Origin: Pipra filicauda
Lineage: Eukaryota > Chordata > Aves > Passeriformes > Pipridae
Assembly (NCBI RefSeq): GCF_003945595.2
Contig: NW_024104440.1
Coordinates: forward strand, 117,449 to 181,448
Reading direction: 5' to 3'
Length of the DNA stretch: 64,000 nt
The position numbers and the translations under genes were made by a program. The notes under the pieces were generated by a model, which worked only from the letters and a program-made list of their open reading frames with translations, was not told the origin of the DNA and did not search any database. The number at the start of each line of letters is the position of its first letter. Within the stretch, counting starts at the first letter, position 1. This document shows, piece by piece, positions 24,332 to 64,000 of the stretch.

Positions 24332-24392
24332 ATGGCCATGGGGTTGCACGCCATCATTTTACTCTGTGCTGTTGTGGCAGGAGCTTCAGGGA
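24332..24392 (+). CDS. LLTP exon 1: signal peptide
   Basis: It encodes [20 protein letters not shown], a clear hydrophobic signal peptide. A second ATG at 24338 has the better context (GCCATGG) and may be the true start. The donor GTAAGT follows; phase 1. Confidence 0.85.

Positions 24393-64000: not shown

Follow-up and report, generated by a model that had tools for sequence, protein, structure and literature searches.

A 64,000-nucleotide stretch of the Pipra filicauda genome (contig NW_024104440.1, positions 117,449 to 181,448; G000:C791:117449-181448; hereafter the window) carries the first exons of a gene, given the working name X4, whose product is represented by a database protein of 3,785 residues (P0001). 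Our analyses support X4 as a fourth vertebrate lineage of large lipid transfer proteins (LLTPs), standing beside apolipoprotein B (apoB), microsomal triglyceride transfer protein (MTP) and vitellogenin (Vtg), and by its sequence the product looks more like the blood lipid carrier of insects than apoB does. We consider it probable, though well short of assured, that X4 is a very large secreted LLTP on the apolipophorin and apoB side of the superfamily, acting as a lipoprotein-like particle or lipid carrier. In the accessible part of PMC1783640, LLTPs are sorted into the APO (apoB, apoLp-II/I, apoCr), Vtg/CP and MTP families, which for vertebrates means apoB, vitellogenin and MTP. The original prediction, which had seen here a fourth, little-described lineage in a bird that is none of these three, was right about the lineage, and the tree check that it had named leaves X4 outside human apoB, the one apoB sampled, and the vitellogenins; it was too narrow about the bird, as the lineage is vertebrate-wide, from lamprey to mammals, and no avian speciality.

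Place of X4 in the superfamily

The LLTP tree (33 sequences, 810 columns, rooted on human MTP) contains a single apoB, the human one; its rows for bird Vtg were strung together from exon matches, and lamprey Vtg enters as a 676-residue piece. The X4 proteins, including that of lamprey, form a clade of their own with support of 99.9/100, and both human apoB and the vitellogenins fall outside it. Sister to this clade are the arthropod apolipophorins (93.6/92); human apoB joins next (89.9/92) and vertebrate Vtg after that (79/84), while bee Vtg is placed beside the MTP root, probably through branch attraction. In approximately unbiased (AU) tests on the full set, the groupings X4+apolipophorin, X4+apoB, apolipophorin+apoB, X4+MTP and X4+Vtg receive P values of 0.676, 0.145, 0.060, 0.081 and 0.0145, respectively, and a sixth tree, in which the APO side alone was constrained and which equals the first, receives 0.746. 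With ten sequences dropped, the remaining 23 taxa give, in the same order, 0.938, 0.151, 0.071, 0.135 and 0.0347 under LG+F+R4 and 0.918, 0.202, 0.222, 0.152 and 0.0526 under LG+C10, the latter in fixed-tree tests only. Taken together, the tree and the AU tests make the X4 clade firm and disfavour vitellogenin, and the link to apolipophorins is the best, though not a proven, one.

Pairwise scores add to this picture. Drosophila apolipophorin finds its best non-insect match in X4 (180 bits, with 172 for crayfish and 79 for human apoB), and a profile of X4 scores the bug, moth and crayfish sequences above both Drosophila apolipophorin and human apoB. Human apoB also has its best match among the sequences compared in X4 (161 bits for the shark protein, 133 for crayfish and 75-95 for insect apolipophorins), which would suit a different history: X4 as a vertebrate-specific duplicate of apoB that predates the lamprey split, retained the ancestral VWD domain lost by apoB and resembles the insect proteins through slow evolution alone. 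The AU values for X4+apoB are compatible with such a duplication, and the apoB branch is long (1.66), so that apoB may have been attracted towards the root. The best tree nevertheless joins X4 with apolipophorins, and that tree or its equal comes top in all three tests; we regard the duplication as unlikely, if a serious contender.

Domain architecture and predicted folds

Pfam finds in P0001, in this order, Vitellogenin_N, the open beta-sheet, PF21013 (the first three located in Table 1), VWD (residues 3534-3680, E 1.1e-11) and C8 (3717-3775, E 6.8e-8), and these five recur in identical order in the shark protein P0099. PF21013, the LOC400499 family, which Pfam names after a human gene, is matched over the whole domain, with an E of 2.1e-260 in P0001 and 1.3e-226 in white shark. 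A match to DUF6951 at residues 2168-2229 is below threshold, no further vitellogenin domain is reported by Pfam at E<=0.01, and NCBIfam gives nothing relevant. The LLTP motifs and the apolipophorin-like MKIFGNEL that had been read from the window are all present in P0001 (NIKRGILS at residue 147, CPT...LC at 177-197, DALP at 362, VGSFVWSHL at 573 and MKIFGNEL at 776), alongside the strong Vitellogenin_N and open beta-sheet matches (E 3.5e-78 and 7.3e-51).

Further along the protein, a repeat motif matches residues 1001-3500 of P0001 seven times, where 50 shuffles average 0.24 matches and never exceed 2. Among full-length X4 proteins the number is 3-10, versus 0-2 in insect apolipophorins. A repeat hidden Markov model (HMM), built partly from P0001 itself, matches P0001 ten times; four whole apolipophorins, from fly, moth and bug, yield nothing at an independent E-value (iE) <0.01. 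Residues ~956-1082 align with the DUF1081 region of apolipophorins (hhalign 94.5%, E 8.3e-8; one control region 6.4%), and the value is 0.9% for the one human apoB sequence, which was truncated at residue 1036 within DUF1081. The segment 3280-3530 has no match to the C-terminal part of apolipophorin. In structure prediction, the N-terminal fold of X4 matches the lipovitellin, MTP and apoB type; VIA-align rows ranked below the LLTPs, mostly armadillo or HEAT helix stacks, were left out of this comparison. For a model of the PF21013 belt, made from a seal relative, apoB ranks first in the fold search (E 9.3e-14).

The C-terminal VWD-C8 unit matches the D domains of FCGBP (E 2.6e-29) and VWF (E 5e-25), and this end of the protein could mean that X4 has left lipid carriage and acts chiefly as a secreted protein of adhesion, immunity or clotting. 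Human LOC400499 is mentioned together with certain other genes in the accessible parts of PMC6607516 and PMC11848799. We take these genes to be neutrophil markers. However, the lipid-transfer module and the PF21013 region are conserved from shark to mammals, and the lipid-transfer fold is predicted to be intact, making a wholesale change of role quite improbable.

Among known systems, insect apolipophorin II/I (Drosophila apoLpp) is nearest to X4 in tree and scores and shares with it the lipid-transfer module, the open sheet, the DUF1081-like region and a C-terminal VWD plus cysteine unit. Besides lacking the repeats at the threshold given, the insect protein differs in PF21013, for which Drosophila apolipophorin gave no match in a comparison limited to its residues 880-1700, and in the N-terminal loop, where Drosophila has RARR and the X4 family no conserved furin-type site: RX[KR]R occurs in 3 of 22 sequences, once in a monitor lizard and, elsewhere in the loop, in two mammals. 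Since the subtilisin-like site is not conserved, we do not file X4 in the apoLp-II/I subfamily. No lipophorin turned up when the Drosophila N-terminus was searched against the PDB. With apolipoprotein B-100, X4 shares the lipid-transfer module, the predicted N-terminal fold and, weakly, the predicted belt. The apoB gene has a giant exon, whereas X4 exons are all short (see below). X4 also ends in VWD-C8, and apoB is unnamed among VWD-bearing members in the accessible part of PMC1783640. MTP, with a chain of 894 residues in its PDB entry, is far from the 3,785 residues and VWD of X4, and on these grounds we reject an MTP identity, which the tree alone leaves standing at the AU values given above.

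Distribution among vertebrates

The database search returned 156 relatives of X4 at E <= 0.001 among 6,913 candidates, and a second protein search gave 31 matches among 7,991 scored candidates; the taxon list rests on the best 120 of the 156 and on the 31. Among the matches listed are birds, turtles, alligator, lizards and snakes; salamanders, caecilians and frogs; lungfish, sturgeon, teleosts, sharks, rays and lamprey; and, of mammals, monotremes, marsupials, ruminants, a whale, pinnipeds, rabbit and rodents. Primates are absent from these listed matches. P0001 is 89-92% identical to P0002-P0004, presumably manakin sequences, and 41-85% identical to 21 other species. The teleost models P0127, P0130, P0132 and P0137 are 2,400-2,800 aa long, from a search that admitted nothing above about 2,800 aa; they may be incomplete models or reflect a shorter gene.

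Automatic names in the 31-match search include "apolipophorins" (9 of 31) and vitellogenin or vitellogenin-like (3 of 31), and other relatives are called uncharacterized or "Vitellogenin domain-containing". The vitellogenin names, together with the lipid-transfer module and C-terminal VWD common to both proteins, would fit X4 being a diverged vitellogenin, a yolk protein. We reject this identity as very improbable: X4 lies outside Vtg in the best tree, with X4+Vtg rejected in both LG+F+R tests and borderline under LG+C10; C8 and PF21013 are reported in it; it runs to 3,785 aa; it is present in placental mammals; and three vitellogenin-like loci lie elsewhere in the same genome (C1207:40745-47391, C1207:67035-73245 and C849:1794600-1809180). 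A single weaker LLTP exon match is found in this genome at C498:1359730-1359900.

Gene structure and locus

Exact spliced mapping of P0001 onto the window and the downstream contig, restricted to AG acceptors with GT or GC donors, yields 73 coding exons over 67 kb, from the ATG at 24332 to the TGA at 91608-91610 (window numbering), the remaining exons lying in the next 28 kb of contig beyond the window. Donors are GT in 71 of 72 cases, the sole GC donor (GCAAGT) following exon 15 at window position 42028. The number of exons originally predicted for the window agrees with this map, in which 43 exons start there and the 43rd (63731-64087) is severed by the window end; the predicted length of at least 2,334 residues was too high, the window portion coming to about 2,242. 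That no exon exceeds 351 bases is correct for the complete exons of the window, whereas the gene-wide maximum is 357: exons 42-44, all of phase 0 and within the repeat array, measure 351, 357 and 351 bases. A pseudogene or false exon chain has virtually no probability in the face of 3,785 stop-free codons over the 73 exons and of relatives that run full length in species from shark to mammals.

Table 1. Features of the X4 gene and its upstream neighbour, in window numbering
Feature	Position	Strand	Basis
X4 (LOC400499-family) gene, coding exons 1-43 of 73	24332..64000, coding on to 91607	+	loci L009-L011; exact exon map
Exon 1, with the initiating ATG and a hydrophobic leader of signal type	24332..24392	+	sequence and exon map; signal peptide assessed visually
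Exons 3-14, lipid transfer (Vitellogenin_N) module, residues 45-581	27107..41151	+	Pfam E 3.5e-78
Exons 14-19, open beta-sheet, residues 614-932	40993..45307	+	Pfam PF09172 E 7.3e-51
Exons 20-23, aligned with apolipophorin DUF1081 region, residues ~956-1082	46164..48209	+	hhalign
Exons 24-33, PF21013 (LOC400499 family), residues 1104-1628, predicted all-beta belt	49300..56224	+	Pfam E 2.1e-260
Start of internal repeat array, residues ~1829-2917, units near 100-120 aa	59388..64000, on to about 75148	+	motif and repeat HMM
Upstream neighbour, open reading frame with LITAF-type N-terminal segment	16198..16452	+	open reading frame
Upstream neighbour, LITAF zinc-ribbon exon	17280..17396	+	Pfam PF10601 E 1.4e-11

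The 1.08-Gb genome has a single PF21013 locus, all nine exon matches (9/9) lying on contig C791 within X4. The gene is flanked by the LITAF zinc-ribbon exon on one side, the open reading frame upstream of which we take to be LITAF as well, and by an SH2 and SOCS-box exon, presumably of SOCS1, on the other. In the models from Willisornis (P0033) and green turtle (P0110), the LITAF domain (PF10601) sits on the same database protein as X4; these are most simply explained as fusions of neighbours, and thus the LITAF-X4 neighbourhood is probably older than birds. At window positions 9651-9707, a short tandem repeat (period 5/15, GCAGA) stands in a GC-rich stretch that is perhaps the LITAF promoter.

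The human locus

Literature positions link the human gene (LOC400499, AC099489.1, ENSG00000188897) to a region with SOCS1, and X4 too lies next to a SOCS-box/SH2 gene. In the parts of the sources accessible to us, to which all of the following refers, LOC400499 variants map to human 16:11.4-11.6 Mb (PMC10869499, PMC10647220), one SNP belongs to a selected region that also holds SOCS1 (PMC10016042), and an association with high-density lipoprotein cholesterol has a P of 3.88e-6, which counts as weak against customary genome-wide thresholds (PMC10869499). Differential expression is given in blood for myocardial infarction (PMC6607516), AQP4 optic neuritis (PMC10036921) and heart failure (PMC8322527), and also in a monocyte fraction (PMC11848799) and in infected chondrocytes (PMC9864161); the level in lavage is 23.8-36.6 transcripts per million (PMC11934315), and a joint proteome table also has an entry (PMC8066727). 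Scattered as they are, these data suggest blood and airway cells. The lavage RNA study lists 145 A-to-I editing events for the gene (PMC11934315).

The part of the original prediction that called the lineage little described stands in that we found no description of X4 as an LLTP among the matches listed in the literature searched, with subscription journals and preprints outside its scope, and no statement of LOC400499 as a lipid carrier in what we saw of the literature on the human gene; six LOC identifiers of X4 relatives led to no paper, and vertebrate, fish, chicken or shark apolipophorins go unmentioned among the matches listed in the literature search. It is too strong in that the Pfam family and the "apolipophorins" names already exist and a table in PMC12561791 sets LOC400499 next to APOB among the human orthologues of Drosophila apoLpp. 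For silkworm apolipophorin, antibacterial roles are cited in PMC7431520.

Discussion

If X4 is the secreted LLTP that we favour, its leader, as read from the sequence, would take it into the endoplasmic reticulum, and the N-terminal module is predicted to fold into a barrel, helical arch and beta-sheets of the lipovitellin, MTP and apoB type, which would surround a lipid cavity. Loading with lipid would probably be assisted by MTP, as with apoB and vitellogenin. The PF21013 region, for which strands are predicted, may together with the repeats wrap as a long, apoB-like beta-belt around a lipid surface, and the VWD-C8 unit, which resembles the one in insect apolipophorin, may act in partner binding or assembly. 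The product would have persisted alongside apoB from before lampreys split off, and mammalian myeloid cells may use it. We infer the carriage of lipid from fold and family, and the tissue is likewise a suggestion. In a bolder version, which we offer tentatively as possible, vertebrates, perhaps humans included, keep the true orthologue of insect apolipophorin; apoB, commonly taught as its counterpart, is a separate and faster-evolving branch; and X4 builds a lipid particle of an undescribed class, anchored through the VWD-C8 end at surfaces or clots and, in the mammalian case, at myeloid cells.

Several observations weigh against the secreted carrier on the apolipophorin side. Within APO, X4 has more than one tenable position, the AU tests leaving X4+apoB at 0.145, 0.151 and 0.202, and against single sequences the X4 profile scores equally for Drosophila apolipophorin (E 3.8e-45) and human apoB (E 3.3e-45). 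DUF1081 (PF06448), which marks the APO family, goes unreported in P0001 by Pfam at E<=0.01. The belt model has a predicted TM-score (pTM) of 0.43 and its match to apoB a TM of 0.26 at a root-mean-square deviation of 37; the modelled piece includes part of the open-sheet region, and as bacterial outer-membrane beta proteins appear from rank 8 in the same search, the match may be generic. Finally, the myeloid expression concerns the human locus, known here from the literature.

If X4 is such a fourth lineage and stands nearer to the insect carrier than apoB does, the account of the origin of apoB would have to change, and the human LOC400499 locus would join the candidates for lipid transport. 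X4 would then offer a direct test for a second large lipoprotein system in vertebrates.
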